Part shown: piece after piece, positions 26 through 7,777 of the stretch
Layout of the letters: each line of letters opens with the position of its first letter
Position numbering within the stretch: position 1 is the stretch's first letter
Assembly: GCA_030066475.1 (NCBI GenBank)
Contig: JASJBO010000315.1
Span: 1-8,486, forward strand
DNA from: Myxococcota bacterium
Lineage (GTDB): Bacteria; Myxococcota_A; UBA9160; PR03
Direction of reading: 5' to 3'
Length of the DNA stretch: 8,486 bases
Notes under the pieces: generated by a model
What the model was told of the DNA's origin: nothing
What the model saw: the letters and a program-made list of their open reading frames with translations, nothing else
The model's database searches: none
Position numbers and translations under genes: made by a program

Positions 26-1375
26 CTACGCCTCGTCCGGCACCCAGTTGCAGTGGAATCCGAACGGAACGCGGTCGGGCAGATGCACCGTCGCCACCGG
101 CTCGCCGGTGAAGTCGCGCGCATCGAGGATCTGCACGTCCGCGCGGCCCTCCCTGGCGTCGTGGGCGTAGGCCATCACCCACCCGTCGTCCTCCTCGGCG
201 CCCTTTGAGCGCGGCACGAACACCGCCTCCATGAACTGCCGGTGGGCGCCCTCGTGGCGCAGCAGGGTCTCGCCCCTCTGCAGGTCGTGCTTCAGCAGGC
301 CGCCGGTCACGAGGTCGCGGCCGTCGCCGAAGCCCGCGCCGTAGCCGAAGCGGTGCGGCTTGCCGATCAGGCGCTCGTCGATGCGCGGGAACTCCTGGCC
401 GTGATCGTCGATGCGAGTCTCCTTGACCGGTCCGCCCCTGGGGTCGATCAGCCAGCGGTCGAGCGTCGGGGGGCCCTCGTTGGGACCGCGCAGGTCGGTG
501 TCGAACATCTTCGGGTGGCGCACGACGTCGAGCACGATGCGGCCGTCGTCGTCCTCGTAGCTGTTGAGCGGGTGGAAGACGAAGCAGGGCTCGACCTCGG
601 CGTAGACGACGTCGTCCGCGCCGCCGTCGCGCGGCAGCAGGCCGACCCGCGTCGGGCGTTCCGGGTGCCAGCGATAGGGCAGGGAGTAGCCCTCGGCGAT
701 CACGGTCTCGTCGAAGATCACCGGGCAGTCGACGAAGACGAACCAGTTCTCGGTGATCGAGCAGTCGTGGATCATGGGCTTGCCCGGGAGCGGGACGTCG
801 ACGGTCTTGCGCACGCGGCCGTCGACGCCGACCACGACGTACTGGATGTAGTCCCAGCCGAAGTGGTAGACGCAGGCGTGCAGCTCGCCGGTCTCGGGGT
901 CGCGCTTGGGGTGCGCGGTGAAGCCGCCCGGCAGGGTGCCGCCGAAGTCGGTCCGGGTCAGGGTCTCGAGCTCGTAGTCGAGCTCGACCGGGACGTTGCC
1001 CGCCTCGACCAGCGCGAAGGTGCGGCCGGCGTGGCCGATGACGTTGGTGTTGACGACCCCGCCGCCGTTCCCGCCGTGCGTGGGACCCGCGACCGGCGGG
1101 CCGCCGCGCTTCGCCACGACCTGGTCGTCGCGCACGTAGCGGCGGCGGTACCACTCGGCCTGGCCGTCGCGCAGGCGCAGGCCGTGCACCATGCCGTTGC
1201 CGATGAACCAGTGGTAGCTCTTCGGCTCGGGGGCCACGGGGTTCGGGCCGATGCGCAGCAGGCGGCCGTTCAGCTCGCGCGGGATCTGGCCCGTGACGTC
1301 GAGGTCGAGCGCGGTCAGCTCGTCGTCGACGGGGGCGAAGTTGCCGGACAGATACGGATTCGCGGTCGCGTTCAT
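26..1375 (-). CDS. Carotenoid oxygenase (RPE65/CCD) family dioxygenase
   Basis: A 449-residue non-haem Fe(II) dioxygenase of the carotenoid/stilbene cleavage family, which splits a C=C bond of a polyene or stilbene with O2. The four iron-ligand histidines are visible in their usual contexts: H155 (GGFTAHP), H203 (MIHDCSITEN), H268 (FVFHPLNSYED) and H441 (PFGFHCNW). The N-terminal family block (LNGRLLRIGPNP at 36-46; WFIGNGMVHG at 56-65) is intact, and the length is normal. No signal peptide, so probably cytoplasmic or peripherally membrane-associated. The ATG was chosen because it overlaps the upstream TetR stop (ATGA at 1372-1375) and has AGGAG at 1383-1387; longer in-frame extensions run across the TetR gene and are spurious. 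The two genes form one translationally coupled unit, so the regulator probably controls this enzyme. The substrate cannot be told; the position I equate with the stilbene-binding lysine of lignostilbene-type enzymes is V123. Confidence 0.93.
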   Translation of the reverse strand: MNATANPYLSGNFAPVDDELTALDLDVTGQIPRELNGRLLRIGPNPVAPEPKSYHWFIGNGMVHGLRLRDGQAEWYRRRYVRDDQVVAKRGGPPVAGPTHGGNGGGVVNTNVIGHAGRTFALVEAGNVPVELDYELETLTRTDFGGTLPGGFTAHPKRDPETGELHACVYHFGWDYIQYVVVGVDGRVRKTVDVPLPGKPMIHDCSITENWFVFVDCPVIFDETVIAEGYSLPYRWHPERPTRVGLLPRDGGADDVVYAEVEPCFVFHPLNSYEDDDGRIVLDVVRHPKMFDTDLRGPNEGPPTLDRWLIDPRGGPVKETRIDDHGQEFPRIDERLIGKPHRFGYGAGFGDGRDLVTGGLLKHDLQRGETLLRHEGAHRQFMEAVFVPRSKGAEEDDGWVMAYAHDAREGRADVQILDARDFTGEPVATVHLPDRVPFGFHCNWVPDEA

Positions 1376-1995
1376 GCGGGTTCTCCTGGCTCGCGCCCCA
1401 GGACGAGGCCGAGCGTGATGTCGAGCGCGTCTTCGAGTCGGGCCCCGGGAACGGCGCCGGTGAGGGCGCCCTGGGACCACAGGGAAGCGAGGCCGTGGAC
1501 GGCGGCCCAGACCGAGCCGGCGAGCGTGCGCGGGTCGCGCTCGGACTCGAAGCCGGCGTCCTGAGCGGACTGCACCAGGCGCACGAGCTGCTCGAACGCG
1601 GCGGCGCCCTCGCCCGCCAGGCGCGGGTTGGCGCCGTCGAGCGCGTCGGGGCGGAACATCAGCGCGAACAGGCCCGGGTTGGCGACGGCGGCCTCCACGT
1701 AGGCCCTGCCGGCGGCCCAGAGCCTGGCGCGCGGACCGGCGCCCGCCGGCAGGCTCCGGCTGGCGCGGTCGACGACGTCCGAGAGCATGCGGAAGCCGCG
1801 CGCGGCGACCTCGGACCGCAGGTCCGACAGGCTCTCGAAGTGGCGCAGCGGGGCGCCGTGCGAGACGCCCGCCTCGCGCGCGATCCGCCGCAGCGTGAGC
1901 CGCTCGATGCCCTCGGTCTCGAGCAGCTTCAGCGCCACCTCGACCAGGCGAGTGTCGAGGCTCTCCACGGCGCCTCCCTCGATCGCCTCCGTCAT
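1372..1995 (-). CDS. TetR/AcrR family regulator, WHG-type C-terminal domain
   Basis: A 207-residue one-component repressor. The N-terminal TetR DNA-binding domain lies at about residues 12-60, with the helix-turn-helix at 34-53 (TLRRIAREAGVSHGAPLRHF). The C-terminal ligand and dimer domain has NPGLFALMF (106-114) and W163-x3-H167-G168, the hallmark of the WHG (TetR_C_33) subfamily. It is the first gene of a minus-strand unit with the carotenoid oxygenase and shares 4 nt with it. It diverges from a second TetR gene at 2085. The ATG directly abuts a tandem palindrome (1997-2032) and has no Shine-Dalgarno sequence, which suggests a leaderless transcript and autorepression. Regulation of the coupled oxygenase is inferred from coupling; the ligand is unknown. 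Confidence 0.93.
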   Translation of the reverse strand: MTEAIEGGAVESLDTRLVEVALKLLETEGIERLTLRRIAREAGVSHGAPLRHFESLSDLRSEVAARGFRMLSDVVDRASRSLPAGAGPRARLWAAGRAYVEAAVANPGLFALMFRPDALDGANPRLAGEGAAAFEQLVRLVQSAQDAGFESERDPRTLAGSVWAAVHGLASLWSQGALTGAVPGARLEDALDITLGLVLGREPGEPA

Positions 1996-1996
1996 G

Positions 1997-2032
1997 GTAG
2001 ACAGCGTCTACTATCGAGTAGACGCTGTCAAC
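1997..2032. promoter_or_regulatory. Tandem palindromic operator of the minus-strand TetR-oxygenase unit
   Basis: Site A, GTAGACAGCGTCTAC (1997-2011), is a perfect 6+3+6 inverted repeat. Site B, GTAGACGCTGTCAAC (2018-2032), is the same pattern with one mismatch. Their starts are 21 bp apart, two helical turns. Read together, 2000-2029 is also a perfect 13-bp inverted repeat around ATCG. The repeat ends one base from the TetR start codon and covers its promoter region. A two-dimer TetR operator (as known for QacR) is the natural reading; the binding protein is inferred from position. Confidence 0.75.
2005..2031 (-). promoter_or_regulatory. Probable promoter of the TetR-carotenoid oxygenase unit
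   Basis: On the minus strand a consensus -35 hexamer TTGACA (2031-2026) is followed after 15 bp by TAGACG (2010-2005), a poor -10 match. Transcription would start close to the ATG at 1995, giving a leaderless message. The element lies wholly within the tandem operator, so bound repressor would block polymerase. Confidence 0.4.
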
Positions 2033-2042
2033 CGCACGACCT

Positions 2043-2080
2043 CTCGACTTGCGCTCGAATGATTTCGAGTAATACTCGAT
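2043..2080. promoter_or_regulatory. Helically phased TCGA-core array, probable operator of the plus-strand TetR gene
   Basis: Four TCGA cores start at 2044, 2055, 2065 and 2076, spaced 11, 10 and 11 bp, about one helical turn each. Adjacent cores form exact inverted repeats: CTCGAA-TGAT-TTCGAG (2054-2069) and TCGAGT-AAT-ACTCGA (2065-2079). The array ends 5 nt before the ATG at 2085. A possible promoter (TTGCGC at 2049-2054, 16 bp, AATACT at 2071-2076) lies inside it. The sequence differs from the 1997-2032 operator, so the two divergent regulators probably read separate sites. Confidence 0.55.
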
Positions 2081-2084
2081 TCGC

Positions 2085-2750
2085 ATGCCGACCAAGCCCG
2101 CCGCGCTCTCCGAGCCCATGTCCAGGCCTGCCCGCGGCGGCGCACGCCGCGGCGCCGGCCGCACCGCCCGCGGAGACACCGCCGAGCGCCAGGCGCGCAT
2201 CCTCGCCGAGGCCACCCGGCTGTTCGCGCGCGCCGGCTTCGATGCCACGACCACCGCCGAGATCGCGCGCCGCGCCGGTGTCTCCGAGGGCACGCTGTTC
2301 CACCACTACCCGAGCAAGCGCGCGCTGCTCGCGGCCATCGCCGAGCGCGGTGCCCGCGAGATCCTCGGCGCGGCCTTCGCCGGCATCGACCCCGAGCGCG
2401 ACGCGCCCGACATCGAGGCGATCGCGCGCCGGCTGGTGGCCTTCGCGCGCGAGCACGAGGACCTCTACCGCGTGTTCCGCATGGGGCGCGGCAGCGAGCC
2501 GCCCGACGCGTCGTTCGCGCTCGAGCAGGGGGAGGACCGCATGGTGGCCGCGACCGCCGACGCGCTGGCGCGCTGGAGCGCGCGCGGCCTGCTGCGCCCG
2601 CTGCGACCGCGCCTGGCCGCCGAGCTCGTGTTCGCGCAGTTCGACGCGCTGGTGCGCTACTGCGTGCTGCTCGGCAACGACGACGACGAGGACGCCTGCA
2701 TCGCCGAGTTCGTCCGCTCGCTCACTGGCGCGCTCACCGAGCCGTCCTGA
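2085..2750 (+). CDS. TetR/AcrR family transcriptional regulator
   Basis: A 221-residue TetR-type regulator. After a basic, Arg/Ala-rich N-terminal tail (residues 12-34), the DNA-binding domain spans about 33-80, with the helix-turn-helix at 56-75 ending in the classic GVSEGTLFHHYPSK. The C-terminal ligand domain (about 85-221) is not assignable to a subfamily; an acidic run (NDDDED) lies near residues 198-203. The start is ambiguous: ATG 2085 has no Shine-Dalgarno sequence and follows a palindrome by 5 nt (leaderless reading), while an in-frame ATG at 2118 would shorten only the disordered tail. It heads a plus-strand unit with the nitroreductase-like remnant (20 nt downstream) and the SDR, which it probably controls. 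Confidence 0.92.
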   Translation: MPTKPAALSEPMSRPARGGARRGAGRTARGDTAERQARILAEATRLFARAGFDATTTAEIARRAGVSEGTLFHHYPSKRALLAAIAERGAREILGAAFAGIDPERDAPDIEAIARRLVAFAREHEDLYRVFRMGRGSEPPDASFALEQGEDRMVAATADALARWSARGLLRPLRPRLAAELVFAQFDALVRYCVLLGNDDDEDACIAEFVRSLTGALTEPS

Positions 2751-2770
2751 AGCGAGGCGAAGGAGGTCCC

Positions 2771-2989
2771 GTGGCCGAATCGCATGCCCAGGCGCCGACG
2801 CTGCCGCTCGCGATGCCGCTCGAGGAGGCGATGCGCACCCAGCGCTCGATCCGGCGCCTGCACCCCGATCCCGTGGACGACGCGCTGCTGCCGATTGGGC
2901 GCTACGGCCCGACCACCCGCAAGCCCGTCGGCGACGTCGTCCACTTCGATCGCTACGGGAACCGACCCTACGCGGAGGCCAAGCGATGA
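2771..2989 (+). CDS. Internally deleted nitroreductase-family remnant, 72 aa
   Basis: A short intact frame starting at GTG 2771 with a strong AAGGAGG (2760-2766). Residues 15-40 (MPLEEAMRTQRSIRR..PDPVDDALL) look like the start of an FMN-dependent nitroreductase, including the family's opening Arg-rich FMN-phosphate motif (R22, R25, R28/R29). Residues 41-64 (PIGRYGPTTRKPVGDVVHFD then RYGN) look like the extreme C-terminus of the same family. The roughly 130-150 residues between, which hold most of the flavin site and dimer core, are missing, so the protein cannot be an active nitroreductase. The frame was kept through the deletion (junction about 2888-2893), and its TGA overlaps the next gene's ATG (ATGA, 2986-2989). 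It may survive because its translation feeds the SDR start. Homology is recognised by eye; a genuine small protein is the alternative. Confidence 0.7.
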   Translation: MAESHAQAPTLPLAMPLEEAMRTQRSIRRLHPDPVDDALLPIGRYGPTTRKPVGDVVHFDRYGNRPYAEAKR

Positions 2990-3918
2990 TCGAGCTCCCC
3001 GACTACGCCGCACCGCGCGGCGGCCTGCGCCGCATGCTGAGCGCCTCGCTCGGCCAGGAGCGGCGCACGCCCACATGCCCCGACACGCCGCGGCTCGACG
3101 GCCAGCTCGCCGTCGTGACCGGCGCGACCGGCGGCATCGGGCTCGAGACCGCGCGCGGGCTGGCCCGGCGCGGGGCGGAGCTGATCCTGCCGTGCCGCAA
3201 CCCCGAGAAGGGCGAGCGCGTGGCGGCAGCGCTCGGCGCCGAGACCGGAGTGCGCATCGCGCTCGTCGCGATGGACCTCGAGGACCTCGAGACGGTTCGC
3301 AGCGCCGCGTCCGAGATCGCGCGCCACGCCGGCGGCCGCTCCGTCGACGTGCTGGTCGAGAACGCCGGCGTCTGGCCGCAACGCCATGCGCGGACGCGGC
3401 AGGGGCACGAGATCGCCTTCGGCGTGAACGTACTCGCCCACTTCGCGCTGCGCCGCGAGCTCGCCGCGGCCGGCCTGCTCGCCGCGAGCCGCATCGTCGT
3501 GGTGACCGGGGACATCTACATCCTCGCGTCGGCCTGCACGCCGGACTACCGCTGGCGCGGCCCGCTGGGCGGCATGCGGGCCTACTGCCGCAGCAAGCTC
3601 GGCAACCTCTGGATCGCGGCGGAGCTCGCGAAACGCTCTCCGGACCTCGAGGTGCGCGTGGTGCACCCCGGTGTGGTTGCGACCAACCTGGGCGGCGACG
3701 CCGGCGCGTTCGGCAACCGCATCAAGCGCGTCATGATGATCTCGCCCGAGCGCGGCGCGCAGATGCCGCTCGTCTGCGCCACGCAGCCCGGCCGCGAGAC
3801 CGGCGGCTACTGGCACAACGCCCACGGCCGCATGCAGCTCGCACCGGAAGACCCGGCACGGGACGGGGCCGCCGCGGCGAAGCTGTGGGAGACCTGCGAG
3901 GCACTGGCAGGCCGGTAG
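2986..3918 (+). CDS. Short-chain dehydrogenase/reductase (SDR), retinol-dehydrogenase-like
   Basis: A 310-residue NAD(P)-dependent oxidoreductase with a Rossmann fold. Visible motifs: cofactor glycine motif TGATGGIG (45-52), acidic D97 after the third strand (MDLED), ENAG (125-128) in place of the usual NNAG, catalytic-tetrad Asn N148 (FGVNVL), and YxxxK as Y200-CRS-K204. The long gap between strand 5 and the Tyr, and HPGVVATNL (217-225), resemble the retinol-dehydrogenase/WW-oxidoreductase group acting on lipophilic alcohols or ketones. The serine normally ending strand 5 (V-S-S) is replaced by T174-G175 in VVVTGDIY. An unusual 40-residue N-terminal stretch precedes the Rossmann fold. ATG 2986 was chosen for its overlap with the upstream stop; frames reaching further 5' are spurious. 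Third gene of the TetR unit. Substrate unknown. Confidence 0.92.
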   Translation: MIELPDYAAPRGGLRRMLSASLGQERRTPTCPDTPRLDGQLAVVTGATGGIGLETARGLARRGAELILPCRNPEKGERVAAALGAETGVRIALVAMDLEDLETVRSAASEIARHAGGRSVDVLVENAGVWPQRHARTRQGHEIAFGVNVLAHFALRRELAAAGLLAASRIVVVTGDIYILASACTPDYRWRGPLGGMRAYCRSKLGNLWIAAELAKRSPDLEVRVVHPGVVATNLGGDAGAFGNRIKRVMMISPERGAQMPLVCATQPGRETGGYWHNAHGRMQLAPEDPARDGAAAAKLWETCEALAGR

Positions 3919-3980
3919 GGTTCTCCAGACGGTGCGGTGGGTCGCCCCGCGAGCAGTCCGGCGGAAGACGCCGGCCGACG

Positions 3981-5246
3981 CTAGACGCTCTGCACGAACT
4001 CGCCCGTGATCGACGCGACGTCCGGCGTGCCCATGTGCCGCATCACCGTCTCGAACTCGCGGCGCAGGACGCGCAGCACACCGGCGACGCCCGGCTCGCC
4101 GAACGCTGCGAGTCCCCACAGATAGGGACGGCCGATGCAGACGGCGGTGGCGCCCAGGGCGAGCGCGGTGAAGACGTCGGTGCCGCGCCGGAAGCCGCTG
4201 TCGATCATCACCGGGATGCGCCCGTCGACGGCCCGCACGACCTCCGCCAGGACCTCGATCGTCGAGATCGCGTTGTCGATCTGCCGCGCGCCGTGGTTGG
4301 AGACGAGGATGCCGTCGACGCCGTGCTCCGCGGCGAGGGCGGCGTCCTCCTGGGTGAGGATGCCCTTCAGGACGAGCTTCATCGAGGTCGCGTCGCGGAT
4401 GCGGTCCACGTCGTCCCAGTCGAGCGTCAGCGCGTCCGAGGCGATCTCGAGCGGATCCCGACCGAAGAAGGTGAGCAGGCGACCGACGCGGCCGAGCTGG
4501 CTCGCACCGTGACACGTCTGGCAGTGCGGGTTCTCGGGCCCCGGGAAGGGGTCGCCCGGACCGCGGAAGTAGCGCAGGCGGTCCTGGCTGCCGAAGCCGA
4601 CATAGTCGACCGTGAGCACGGCCACGGGGCAGCCGGCCTGCTCCGCCCGCCGGAGCTGGAGCCGCGTGAGCGGCCACACGCGCGACGCGATCAGCATGAA
4701 CCAGACCGGCGCGCCGCGCGCCTCGACAACCCGATCGAGTGACTTCGCGGAGGCCGTCGAGAGGATCTGGAGCTGGTCGGTGCTCTTCGCGGCGCGCGCC
4801 ACGGCCAGCTCGCCCTCGGGATGGAACGCGGTCTGCATGCCCGCCGGCGCCAGCGCCACCGGGAACGGGAGCCTGGTGCCCAGCACCTCGGTCGTCGTGT
4901 CGAGCTCCGCCACGTCGATCAGGCGCCGCGGGCGCAGCCCGAAGCGCCCGAAGCCGGCGCGGTTGGCGTGGAGGCCGCGCTCGTGGTCGACGCCGGTGGC
5001 GAGGTAGGCGTAGTGCCCCGGCGAGAGTCGCTGCTTCGCCACGGCGCGGAAGTCGAAGACGTTGATCGCGTCCCCGGGCGACCCGATCGGCTGGCCGGGG
5101 GGCGAGAGGTCGGGCTCGCACTGCCCGAGCGCCTCGAGCAGCGGCTCCACCGCGCCGGCCGGACGCGCCGTCCACCACAGCGGGCTGCCCAGCAGGAAGC
5201 GGAGCAGAGCGCGACGGCTCGGGCCTCGGGGGGCGAGGCAAGGCAT
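3981..5246 (-). CDS. FMN-dependent alpha-hydroxyacid dehydrogenase family protein, Tat-exported, with CxxCH motif
   Basis: A 421-residue member of the glycolate oxidase/L-lactate dehydrogenase (LldD, flavocytochrome b2) family, which oxidises 2-hydroxyacids to 2-oxoacids on FMN in a TIM barrel. Residues 1-32 look like a Tat signal: SRRALLR (10-16), a hydrophobic stretch, then AGA before a likely cleavage site at 32/33, so a periplasmic location is inferred. Mapped on spinach glycolate oxidase from memory, Y81 (Y24), D214 (D157), K294 (K230), H318 (H254) and R321 (R257) are kept, as is the FMN-phosphate motif DSGFRRG (349-355). The positions equivalent to Q127, Y129 and R164 are M184, I186 and about Q221, so substrate or electron acceptor may differ. 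A haem-c-type CQTCH (242-246) sits in the loop after strand 4. The gene diverges from the TetR gene at 5337, its likely regulator. Confidence 0.9.
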   Translation of the reverse strand: MPCLAPRGPSRRALLRFLLGSPLWWTARPAGAVEPLLEALGQCEPDLSPPGQPIGSPGDAINVFDFRAVAKQRLSPGHYAYLATGVDHERGLHANRAGFGRFGLRPRRLIDVAELDTTTEVLGTRLPFPVALAPAGMQTAFHPEGELAVARAAKSTDQLQILSTASAKSLDRVVEARGAPVWFMLIASRVWPLTRLQLRRAEQAGCPVAVLTVDYVGFGSQDRLRYFRGPGDPFPGPENPHCQTCHGASQLGRVGRLLTFFGRDPLEIASDALTLDWDDVDRIRDATSMKLVLKGILTQEDAALAAEHGVDGILVSNHGARQIDNAISTIEVLAEVVRAVDGRIPVMIDSGFRRGTDVFTALALGATAVCIGRPYLWGLAAFGEPGVAGVLRVLRREFETVMRHMGTPDVASITGEFVQSV

Positions 5247-5295
5247 GAAAGCGAAGATATATTCGTCTTTCGATCGACGTCAAGAAGAAAGCGAA
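5247..5295. promoter_or_regulatory. GAAAGCGAA repeats, possible TetR operator between divergent genes
   Basis: GAAAGCGAA occurs at 5247-5255 and 5287-5295 in direct orientation exactly 40 bp apart. A near-inverted copy, TTCGTCTTTC, lies between at 5262-5271 and pairs imperfectly with either flank. The set brackets the minus-strand promoter in an A/T-richer patch. Control by the divergent TetR protein at 5337 is inferred from position only. Confidence 0.4.
5254..5283 (-). promoter_or_regulatory. Promoter of the alpha-hydroxyacid dehydrogenase gene
   Basis: On the minus strand TTGACG (5283-5278, 5 of 6 to consensus) is followed after 16 bp by TATATC (5261-5256) or after 18 bp by TATCTT (5259-5254). 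The second box ends 7 nt before the ATG at 5246, and no Shine-Dalgarno sequence is present, so transcription probably starts at or next to the start codon. Confidence 0.5.
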
Positions 5296-5336
5296 TTGTC
5301 CTTCGGTTTTTTGGCGATCCCCGCTACCGTGTCGCC

Positions 5337-5996
5337 ATGAGTGCATCCCGCAGGCGCGGTCGGCGCGCCGCCCCGGTGCCCCCGGCCCCGCGGGAGTTCC
5401 AGCAGGCGCGGTCGCGGGCGTCGTACGAGCGCATCCTGGCGGCTGCGCTCGAGCTCTACGCCGAGCGCGGCTTCCACGCCACCCAGACGCCCGACATTGC
5501 CGAGCGCGCGGGCATGAGCGTGGGCGGGCTCTACCGCTACTTCCGCGACAAGCACCAGGTCTTCCTGGAGCTGGTGCACCGCGTGCTCGAGCAGAACCGC
5601 CAGACGCAGGACCGCATGCTGGCGGCGGTCGAGGCGGAGCTGGACGCGGGCAACGTGGACCTGCGGCGTTTCGTCGAGGTTGCCGTCGACTGGACCTGGC
5701 GGGCGCTGCACCCGGCGCCCCCGGACCTGCTGCGCACGCTGGCGGCCATGGCGTACGCCGACCCCGCGTTCGCCGCGCTGACCGACCAGTACGACCGCTA
5801 CGAGCGCAAGGAGCTCTCGCGCGTGCTCGCCAAGCTCACCTCGCGCCGACGCGTGCCGTCCCCGCTCGCCGCGGCGCGCGTGGTCGACCTCGTCATCCCG
5901 ACCGTCGCGATCTGGACGGCGCTCCATCCGGAGGATGCGCGTGGGGTCAAGGAGGCGACGGTGGAGATGATCTACCGCTACCTGGCCGAGGGCTAG
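5337..5996 (+). CDS. TetR/AcrR family transcriptional regulator
   Basis: A 219-residue TetR-type regulator with a basic tail (RRRGRR at 5-10), then the DNA-binding domain at about 26-75, with its helix-turn-helix at 50-69 (QTPDIAERAGMSVGGLYRYF), typical of the family. The C-terminal region (about 80-219) is helical and Trp-containing (VDWTWRALHPAPPD, 107-120), with a late hydrophobic helix VVDLVIPTVAIWTAL (162-176); no specific subfamily is assigned. ATG 5337 is the first methionine that keeps the DNA-binding domain without entering the divergent gene. It has no Shine-Dalgarno sequence but a TACCGT box (5325-5330) ends 6 nt upstream, again compatible with a leaderless message. It is separated by 90 bp from the divergent hydroxyacid dehydrogenase, its probable target. 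Confidence 0.92.
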   Translation: MSASRRRGRRAAPVPPAPREFQQARSRASYERILAAALELYAERGFHATQTPDIAERAGMSVGGLYRYFRDKHQVFLELVHRVLEQNRQTQDRMLAAVEAELDAGNVDLRRFVEVAVDWTWRALHPAPPDLLRTLAAMAYADPAFAALTDQYDRYERKELSRVLAKLTSRRRVPSPLAAARVVDLVIPTVAIWTALHPEDARGVKEATVEMIYRYLAEG

Positions 5997-6105: not shown

Positions 6106-6125
6106 TGTCAATACATGTATTGACA
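6106..6125. promoter_or_regulatory. Perfect 20-bp palindrome, putative RHH operator
   Basis: TGTCAATACATGTATTGACA is an uninterrupted, perfectly self-complementary 20-mer in an A/T-rich island, 28 nt before the RHH start codon. Its right end is the TTGACA -35 box of the downstream gene, so a bound dimer or tetramer would exclude RNA polymerase. RHH antitoxin-like proteins commonly autorepress through such sites; binding here is inferred. Confidence 0.7.
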
Positions 6126-6147
6126 AATCCTCTCCCGCCAGTACGCT
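6120..6147 (+). promoter_or_regulatory. Promoter of the RHH-nucleotidyltransferase unit
   Basis: Consensus -35 TTGACA (6120-6125), 16-bp spacer, -10-like TACGCT (6142-6147). Six nucleotides separate the -10 from ATG 6154, so the start site would fall on the A of the ATG; there is no Shine-Dalgarno sequence. The identical TACGCT recurs before the gene at 7797. Confidence 0.5.
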
Positions 6148-6153
6148 CCCTAT

Positions 6154-6642
6154 ATGCACAAGACCGAGCAGCTCCAGATCCGGGTCTCGGCCTCCCAGAA
6201 GCTCGCGATCAAGAAGCAGGCGGAACGCGCAGGGAGGACGATGTCCGAGTGGATCCTGAGCCGGCTGCTTCCGTCGCCGCAGACCGCTTTCCAGGAGCTG
6301 GTCGCGGATCTGGCAACCTCGGACGAGCCCTCGTATGCCGTGGCCGAGCTGCTCGAGCTGCTCGGCTCGCTGAACGCTGCGGAATTCGAGAACGCGGTCG
6401 CCGAGCTTCCTGCCGCCCCGCTCTCTCCATACTGGCAGAACTACCTGGCGGCGACCGTCGAGCAGGCTGCGGCCACGAAGCGGGCGAGGGTGCCGAGCTG
6501 GACGCGCGAGATCGCGCCGCTGGACGAGCCGGTGTTCGGCTCCTCGCTTCGCAGTCTGCGGCTGCACCTGCTCTTGAACTCGCCGCCCGCGTTCGCGCAG
6601 CGCAACATCTTCATCGACGCGAGCGTGGGCGACCGGGTCTAG
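6154..6642 (+). CDS. Ribbon-helix-helix protein, putative antitoxin or repressor partner of an NTase
   Basis: A 162-residue protein. Residues 5-40 fit a ribbon-helix-helix DNA-binding domain: strand LQIRVS (7-12), helix ASQKLAIKKQAERAG (13-27), turn RT, and helix MSEWILSRLL (30-39), the Arc/CopG pattern of many type II antitoxins. The remaining 120 residues are not a family I recognise: acidic helical segments (45-86), then YWQNYLAATVEQ (93-104), and a distinctive tail (113-162) with SLRSLRLHLLL, PPAFAQRNIFIDASVGDRV. At 162 residues it is about twice the usual RHH antitoxin, so the C-terminal part may bind the partner. The nucleotidyltransferase gene starts 2 nt after its stop, and a perfect palindrome overlaps its promoter. 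Antitoxin function is inferred from this layout; a plain transcriptional regulator is the alternative. Confidence 0.85.
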   Translation: MHKTEQLQIRVSASQKLAIKKQAERAGRTMSEWILSRLLPSPQTAFQELVADLATSDEPSYAVAELLELLGSLNAAEFENAVAELPAAPLSPYWQNYLAATVEQAAATKRARVPSWTREIAPLDEPVFGSSLRSLRLHLLLNSPPAFAQRNIFIDASVGDRV

Positions 6643-6644
6643 CC

Positions 6645-7184
6645 GTGTCCTACGCGCTCTCGCGTGAGGACATCCTGCGCCTGCTCCGCGCGCTGAACAC
6701 GGAGCTGGAGGCAGACGGGGTCAGGGGGCAGGTCAACCTCGCCGGCGGCGCGGTCATGTGTCTCGCCTTCGGGGCCCGCGCGTCGACGCGCGACGTCGAC
6801 GCCGTCTTCGAGCCATCCGTTGCCGTCCTCGACGCCGCCTTGCGAGTGGCGGCCCGGGAAGGCGTGCGGGACACGTGGCTGAACGATGCGGTCAAGGGCT
6901 ACGTCAGCGATCGCGGGACCTTCGTCCCCTTCCTCGAGCTGAGCCACCTCAAGGTGTTTCGCGCCACCGGGGAGTACATGCTGGCCATGAAGTGCCTGGC
7001 GATGCGAATCGGAGAGGGCTATCGCGACGAGGAGGACGTCCGCTACCTGGTTCGCAATCTCGGGATCGGCCGATACGACGAAGCCCTGGAGGTCCTCGGC
7101 CGCTACTACGCGCTTCCGGAGTACCCCGAGACGGCGCTGCTGGCGCTCCGGGAGCTGCTCCCGGACCCAGCGAGCCGACCATAG
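6645..7184 (+). CDS. DUF6036/AbiEii-like nucleotidyltransferase, putative toxin
   Basis: A 179-residue protein of the DNA polymerase beta-type nucleotidyltransferase superfamily. The active-site signature is complete: G34-G35 (NLAGGAVMCLAFG, 31-43), R45, then the metal-binding pair D50-x-D52 (STRDVDAVF, 47-55). Downstream LAMKCLAMRIGEGYRDEEDVRYL (positions 113-135) is the Lys plus RDxxD helix pattern of DUF6036 and AbiEii/MenT proteins. AbiEii/MenT relatives are toxins that modify tRNA or nucleotides; DUF6036 members are largely uncharacterised. GTG 6645 was chosen because it gives the family's usual N-terminus and follows the RHH stop by 2 nt; the frame upstream of it is antigenic to the RHH gene and spurious. 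Translation is probably coupled to the RHH gene. A housekeeping nucleotidyl transfer role is not excluded. Confidence 0.88.
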   Translation: MSYALSREDILRLLRALNTELEADGVRGQVNLAGGAVMCLAFGARASTRDVDAVFEPSVAVLDAALRVAAREGVRDTWLNDAVKGYVSDRGTFVPFLELSHLKVFRATGEYMLAMKCLAMRIGEGYRDEEDVRYLVRNLGIGRYDEALEVLGRYYALPEYPETALLALRELLPDPASRP

Positions 7185-7320: not shown

Positions 7321-7686
7321 TCAGCTCATCGCCTTCACGTAGGTGCCGAGGTCGAAGTAGTCGCGCCACACCTTGATCTTGCCGTTCTCGAGCTCGAAGA
7401 CGCCCGTGCAGGGCAGGTCGACGGACTTGTCGCCGGCCCGGGTGCGGTCGACGCGCTCGGCGATCACGACGTCGCCCGCGGCGACGAGGTGGAGAATCTC
7501 CCAGCTCGTCTCCGTCCAGGTTCGGATGAAGCCGGCGATCATGTTCTTCACGTTCTCGCGGCCCGCGACCGGGCCGGTCGGCATGTTGTGGTAGATCCCG
7601 TCCTCGGCGAAGTAGCGGCTCAGCTCCTCGGGGTCGAGCCGCGACCATGCCTCGATGAAGTCGCGAACGATGCTCTCGTTGTCCAC
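7321..7686 (-). CDS. Limonene-1,2-epoxide hydrolase family protein
   Basis: A 121-residue protein with the small cone-shaped alpha+beta fold of limonene-epoxide hydrolase/SnoaL-like enzymes, which open epoxides with water. The residues known in the Rhodococcus enzyme are recognisable: Y32 and N34 (IYHNMP, equivalent to Y53/N55), R78 and D80 (AERVD, R99/D101), and D109 (VWRDYFD, D132). The catalytic set is therefore complete, which makes true epoxide hydrolase activity more likely than a generic SnoaL role. GTG 7686 was chosen over the upstream in-frame ATG (7755) because GGAGGG lies about 5 nt before it and the family N-terminus (NESIVRDFIEAW) begins at once. No signal peptide; cytoplasmic. 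It stands alone, 110 bp from a divergent gene. Substrate unknown (terpene, sterol or fatty epoxides are possible). Confidence 0.9.
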   Translation of the reverse strand: MDNESIVRDFIEAWSRLDPEELSRYFAEDGIYHNMPTGPVAGRENVKNMIAGFIRTWTETSWEILHLVAAGDVVIAERVDRTRAGDKSVDLPCTGVFELENGKIKVWRDYFDLGTYVKAMS

Positions 7687-7748
7687 GAAGCCCTCCGATG
7701 TGCGCCTGCGGCAGAAGAACGCCCACGATATCGCGATTCCGCCGGCCG

Positions 7749-7777
7749 GTGACACACTGGGCGGACTCCCCTACGCT
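7749..7777 (+). promoter_or_regulatory. Promoter of the exported-protein gene
   Basis: GTGACA (7749-7754, 5 of 6 to the -35 consensus), a 17-bp spacer, then TACGCT (7772-7777), the same -10 as the RHH unit. The expected start near 7784 leaves a 13-nt leader carrying AGGAGGGG (7785-7792). Confidence 0.5.

Follow-up and report, generated by a model that had tools for sequence, protein, structure and literature searches.

In the 8,486-nt stretch of DNA analysed here (the window; contig JASJBO010000315.1 of the Myxococcota bacterium assembly GCA_030066475.1), two adjacent genes are best read, with a probability of roughly three in four judged from the sequence, as an autonomous toxin-antitoxin (TA) module made of a nucleotidyltransferase (NTase) toxin and a two-domain, autoregulating antitoxin with an N-terminal ribbon-helix-helix (RHH) domain. 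In the proposed mechanism, the second gene would encode an AbiEii/MenT-like NTase whose free form probably modifies tRNA and halts growth, as its fold and catalytic residues suggest; the C-terminal domain of the antitoxin would bind and silence the NTase, consistent with the constancy of this domain and with natural fusions; and the RHH domain would dimerise on a palindrome over the -35 element, repressing its own promoter, as the conservation of the operator suggests. Transcription may start at the ATG or close to it, and the gap of 2 nt between the genes suggests translational coupling. The features of the module are as follows.

6106-6125, no strand: putative operator, perfect palindrome TGTCAATACATGTATTGACA (20/20 nt), composed of TGTCAATAC-AT-GTATTGACA with a spacer of 2
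6120-6125, plus strand: -35 hexamer TTGACA, within the right arm of the operator
6142-6147, plus strand: putative -10 element TACGCT, 16 nt past TTGACA and 6 nt ahead of the ATG at 6154
6154-6642, plus strand: putative antitoxin/autorepressor gene, 162 aa, stop codon included
6154-6276, plus strand: predicted N-terminal RHH DNA-binding domain, residues 1-41, above the PF21983 cut-off
6355-6639, plus strand: C-terminal domain, about residues 68-162, the constant and putatively neutralising part of the antitoxin; it adjoins the NTase whether the DNA-binding domain is RHH, XRE or not recognised
6645-7184, plus strand: NTase gene, presumed toxin, 179 aa from GTG, stop codon included, 2 nt past the RHH gene's stop
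6744-6749, plus strand: NTase motif I, G34-G35 (80/80 loci, partly by construction)
6786-6800, plus strand: NTase motif II, T48 (80/80), D50 (74/80) and D52 (74/80)
6990-6992, plus strand: NTase motif III lysine K116 (79/80, partly by construction), aligned with MenT1 K137
7026-7037, plus strand: NTase motif IV, D128-x-x-D131 (D128 77/80, D131 79/80)

An initial annotation of the window had described a perfect palindrome over the -35, a gene with an N-terminal RHH domain and, 2 nt later, an NTase with intact motifs. Each of these descriptions was borne out: the palindrome matches at 20/20 positions with TTGACA in its right arm, residues 2-39 of the RHH protein match the NikA-like family PF21983 (33.5 bits against a gathering cut-off of 27), and the NTase carries GG (residues 34-35) and DxD (50-52).

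Near-obligate linkage of the two genes

A profile built from an alignment of 26 NTases (A1) was scanned against genome contigs, yielding 148 relatives in 175 stretches, the best 80 of which were kept and provide the residue conservation counts. Because the scan keyed on the two peptides GGAVMCLA and YMLAMKC, part of the invariance of G34, G35 and K116 was built into the sampling; neither pattern covers T48, D50, D52 or D131. Additional samples of 349, 298 and 282 genomes (chosen centre genomes included) contained the NTase in 5, 23 and 23 genomes, respectively, and the distribution is therefore patchy. The resulting loci, L001-L135, were reduced to 119 by excluding L109, which had no open-frame match, and duplicates; 101 of these were classed as strong (NTase E≤1e-30). 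For the two genes, 3818/4528 and 1761/2267 candidates proved homologous at E≤0.001, and the best 120 of the 3818 and of the 1761 were listed.

The 119 loci fell into partner classes of RHH upstream (68), XRE upstream (10), other upstream (11, including L125 with a helix-turn-helix (HTH) by Pfam and L075 with a weak one), downstream (10), fused (3) and none recognised (17). Linkage of the two genes is near-obligate among the strong relatives: 95/101 have a partner (68 RHH, 9 XRE, 9 other upstream, 7 downstream and 2 fused), as expected for a type II/IV TA pair of adjacent, co-oriented genes that nearly always occur together. Homologues usually standing without the partner, the pattern named in the initial annotation as speaking against the pair, were thus not the rule among the strong relatives, and 70 of the 95 paired strong loci have the RHH form (68 plus the 2 fused). 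Three of the six strong loci without a partner (L039, L061 and L119) start at contig edges, and a fourth, L121, belongs to a toxin-first clade and ends 13 bases past the NTase match. The remaining two are L049, in which the operator immediately precedes an NTase that has lost its first catalytic aspartate and no RHH gene is present, and L103, in which a site resembling the operator (by eye, 2 mismatches) abuts the middle of the NTase, leaving neither the RHH gene nor GG and DxD. No intact orphan NTase with informative flanks occurred among the 101 strong loci.

Starting from the partner led to the same result, in agreement with the suggested check of adjacency: the NTase was adjacent or fused in 19/20 and 11/11 of the genomes that the partner profile picked out in two samples. 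In the 298-genome sample, the 20 genomes comprised 16 in which the NTase is the next gene, three with a fusion (G431, G491 and G622) and one cut by a contig end (G504); NTase-only genomes were G442 (locus L103), G474, G545 and G629, with weak, mostly partial matches. In the 282-genome sample, the NTase was adjacent in all 11 genomes matched by the RHH-type partner profile (the partner lying downstream in G714), and 12 more genomes had an NTase without such a match. A broader profile of the C-terminal domain recovered the partner in 6/12 (G681, G791, G795, G877, G881 and G914), that of G681 weakly (E 2e-4, 211 nt away); G879 and the strong copy in G925 are cut by contig ends, and G707, G778, G807 and G920 (NTase matches at E 1e-14 to 5e-6) showed no partner with the broader profile.

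A constant C-terminal domain behind varying N-termini

All 24 members of the partner alignment A2 match PF21983 at E≤0.1, and the weak fold matches of the RHH protein include NikA, Arc, CopG, AtaR, FitA and VapB12; its ParD and TacA1 Pfam matches are below cut-off. The structure model of the antitoxin has a mean pLDDT of 86.4. At 21 loci whose partner is of the XRE, other or downstream class, the partner-profile match begins at position 40-98 and ends at 158-165. Pfam finds HTH_3 in the partners at L066, L125 and L126 and assigns those at L042, L060, L083, L123 and L127 to no family; the C-terminal domain therefore accompanies the NTase while the N-terminus varies. The RHH domain is thus one of several N-terminal forms and the C-terminal domain is the constant element, which we infer to be the neutralising part. 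The "different antitoxin architecture" proposed in the initial annotation is indeed different, yet the description was incomplete in treating the RHH form as the defining one. Three single open reading frames (ORFs; L101, L104 and L105) join the RHH domain, C-terminal domain and NTase, an arrangement suggestive of toxin-antitoxin contact; L101 retains GG and DxD, and L104 and L105 have lost catalytic residues. At L085 (775-1443), a distant NTase hit (E 9e-7) is preceded by an HTH_37 protein; by eye, the C-terminal end of that protein looks like the constant domain, a hint that the superfamily may be wider.

Different DNA-binding domains go with different operators

The palindrome at 6106-6125 probably serves as the binding site of the RHH antitoxin. 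Its sequence has one match in the window and none in 200 shuffles, a comparison that tests that one sequence only, and in a general palindrome test its score was equalled or exceeded by 0/60 Markov resamples of the 113-nt region upstream. Sites of the form GTCAATAC-N0-8-GTATTGAC (≤2 mismatches of 16, within 1 kb upstream of the NTase) were present at 61/68 RHH loci, 3/3 fused loci and in the window, and absent from the XRE (0/10), other-upstream (0/11) and downstream (0/10) loci; among the 17 partnerless loci, only L049 and L103 had one. The spacer is 4 in 56/67 loci having the site and 2 in the window, and the RHH loci span Myxococcota, Pseudomonadota, Gemmatimonadota and Acidobacteriota. The exact operator occurred in 15/26 genomes with an RHH or fused module, once each and at the module, and was absent from 11/26; the reversed-site control gave 0/26. 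In the 298-genome sample, eight genomes had the exact operator, seven of them at the module. The lone site of the eighth (L172; G547:C66:66171-66190) has no recognisable TA genes in the surrounding 3 kb and is a remnant or a chance match.

At XRE loci another operator, TGACATA-N6-TATGTCA, was present in 7/10 (≤2 mismatches) and in 0/69 RHH loci including the window; it was confined to one place per genome, the module, in 7/8 genomes, with one match for the reversed control. Different DNA-binding domains thus go with different operators. A constant core that occurs in nature with several DNA-binding domains, each having its own operator, offers a tool for studying how autoregulation evolves separately from neutralisation.

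A generic promoter scan of the window returned 0 sites because the -10 element TACGCT is weak. Among the 72 RHH-type loci (68 RHH, 3 fused and the window), 69 had a scorable right arm and start, and in 60/69 the end of the chosen -10 lies 5-7 nt ahead of the start codon; since this -10 was picked as the best of five positions, the count only suggests that the mRNA of the RHH gene may be leaderless, starting at or near the ATG at 6154.

Twelve viral stretches also carry the operator, in two cases (L162 near 3806 and L168 near 2289) beside a different, short RHH ORF, which at L162 is NikA-like by Pfam; the site may therefore be read by a wider RHH clade.

The NTase lies at the edge of described families

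The structure model of the NTase has a mean pLDDT of 91.2. The DUF6036 label of the initial annotation did not hold for the window NTase itself, which has no match to PF19502 at E≤1, but it stands through relatives: among ten scanned, L063, L125, L131 and L135 pass the cut-off, and L063, at E 2e-53 to profile A1, scores 27.5 against 23.6. By these sequence comparisons, the window NTase is tied to DUF6036 via intermediates only. Nor does it match AbiEii/DUF1814 (PF08843) at E≤1, and 3/26 A1 members match that family at E≤0.1 (best 0.027); its best Pfam match is DUF2204 (E 0.069, below cut-off). NCBIfam gives 0 matches and the PADLOC AbiEii models marginal ones only (E 0.03-0.04). All four AbiEii motifs (hG[G/S], DhD, the lysine of motif III and +DxxD, as given in the accessible part of PMC3985639) are present, with a GG-to-D spacing of 14 against 15 in AbiEii; the "+" position of motif IV is His in 63/80 relatives. 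The module defines a testable NTase TA family, found in several phyla, whose member in the window falls outside the Pfam cut-offs of AbiEii and DUF6036, has no NCBIfam match for its NTase and is marginal to PADLOC AbiEii.

Weighing the alternatives

Ten of the 95 paired NTases (L002, L010, L018 and others) lack a catalytic aspartate and L072 is truncated, and because paired NTases also lose this residue, the contrast with the orphans (2/2 catalytically damaged) is post hoc and small; retention of the partner in such loci suggests toxin decay. Furthermore, just two starred independent phylogenetic contrasts were available, and by that test the correlation between DNA-binding domain and operator is non-significant.

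Within the TA interpretation, a tentative variant is that neutralisation is covalent or indirect, the antitoxin inducing auto-phosphorylation of T48 or protecting the target instead of simply sequestering the toxin. MenA1 induces auto-phosphorylation of MenT1 at its phosphoacceptor T39 (accessible part of PMC11375011), with which the invariant T48 (80/80 loci) aligns, and the AbiE proteins are reported as non-interacting (accessible part of PMC3985639). However, the conservation of T48 may reflect catalysis alone, MenA1 differs in domain make-up and the fused antitoxin-NTase chains suggest contact.

It is improbable that the NTase is a small-molecule or drug modifier, like the aminoglycoside or lincosamide nucleotidyltransferases, with the first gene merely its regulator. 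A plain regulator needs no second domain that is retained while the DNA-binding domain changes or vanishes; the near-obligate pairing, the fusions and the catalytic loss in both deletion loci (L049 and L103) fit a TA module better, and the T-x-D, K and D spacing of the NTase follows MenT1.

Phage defence by abortive infection, suggested in the initial annotation, has similarly poor odds. The AbiEii/MenT-like fold speaks for it, as AbiE can confer phage resistance (accessible part of PMC3985639), but we saw no sign of such a role: no relative was found in IMG/VR with the two patterns used, PADLOC had no match to the window RHH protein and marginal ones to the NTase, and the window neighbours are metabolic genes and TetR regulators (at the other loci, neighbours were not searched for defence genes). 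An artefact of overlapping ORFs in GC-rich DNA plus a random palindrome is extremely improbable, since many long ORFs do occur on both window strands but the 3818 and 1761 homologues (E≤0.001), conserved alignments and the operator in other phyla speak against it.

Relation to known systems

Two-domain antitoxins that regulate themselves, toxins of the NTase kind and exchange between RHH and XRE (in HicB) are each already known. Like AbiE (AbiEi-AbiEii, COG5340-COG2253/DUF1814), the module is bicistronic with NTase motifs I-IV (accessible part of PMC3985639). AbiEi binds DNA through its N-terminus, needs only its C-terminal domain for antitoxicity and autorepresses at its promoter (same source), a two-domain plan that the antitoxin here is predicted to share. 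In contrast, AbiE uses a winged helix and two 23-bp repeats, and the present module an RHH or XRE domain and a single palindrome; the COG5340/COG4861 winged-helix antitoxin that characterises AbiE was not found, the partner being NikA-like RHH, XRE or without recognised domain in relatives. MenA1 of MenAT1 (MenA1-MenT1, Rv0078B-Rv0078A, M. tuberculosis) has 68 aa and no apparent DNA-binding domain (accessible part of PMC10435456), unlike the 162-aa antitoxin here with its RHH and C-terminal domains and conserved operator. ParD, TacA, FitA and AtaR have a similar RHH N-terminus, with a different toxin and a different C-terminal domain, which is larger here.

HicB antitoxins likewise fuse a constant domain to RHH or XRE DNA-binding domains (accessible part of PMC2701414), so domain exchange as such is already known; toxin and constant domain are others, and the accessible part of that paper makes no mention of matched operators. 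Panacea (PanA) antitoxins are also modular around one recurring domain (accessible part of PMC8832971), but there a single domain is retained alongside changing toxins, whereas here the toxin and C-terminal domain stay and the DNA-binding domain and operator differ. A literature search, beyond which most subscription papers lay, found no paper naming DUF6036 and no report of an RHH-NTase pair.

Movement between genomic sites

The module is present at unrelated genomic sites. No flanks shared at the level of blastn (about 4 kb each side) were detected for L013/L014 (NTase 92% identical), L012/L020 (90%) or L007/L013 (88%); L007 and L013 are both from isolate JA6.bin17. In 7/10 pairs (L013/L014, L023/L038, L012/L020, L007/L013, L013/L026, L052/L059 and L009/L013), shared DNA begins 13-17 nt before the right arm of the operator, that is, at its left edge, and ends -7 to +43 nt from the NTase stop; it begins further in for the other three (L029/L043, L022/L032 and L028/L019). 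Close pairs such as L007/L035 and L026/L045 have flanks in common and therefore reflect vertical descent. L023 and L038 share a 5.2-kb neighbourhood with the module on opposite sides, and L038 is uninterrupted where L023 holds its copy. The sharp ends raise the question of how bare TA units move; selection on the operator could, however, sharpen the apparent left edge. We consider it unlikely that one joint account holds in full, in which a minimal selfish unit that lacks a transposase and measures about 1.1 kb between the operator and the stop codon of the toxin gene, both included, would spread between phyla, insert at unrelated places, swap DNA-binding domain and operator as a matched cassette, and keep the toxin and a neutralising domain that silences it via T48 auto-phosphorylation.

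Just upstream of the operator in L023 (about 5285-5440), an element resembling a miniature inverted-repeat transposable element, with inverted ends and flanking TTAA, was seen by eye. In the window, the genes around the module (26-5996 and 7321-7755) include an RPE65-family gene, three TetR-type regulators, an FMN-dependent dehydrogenase and a SnoaL/epoxide-hydrolase-like gene.
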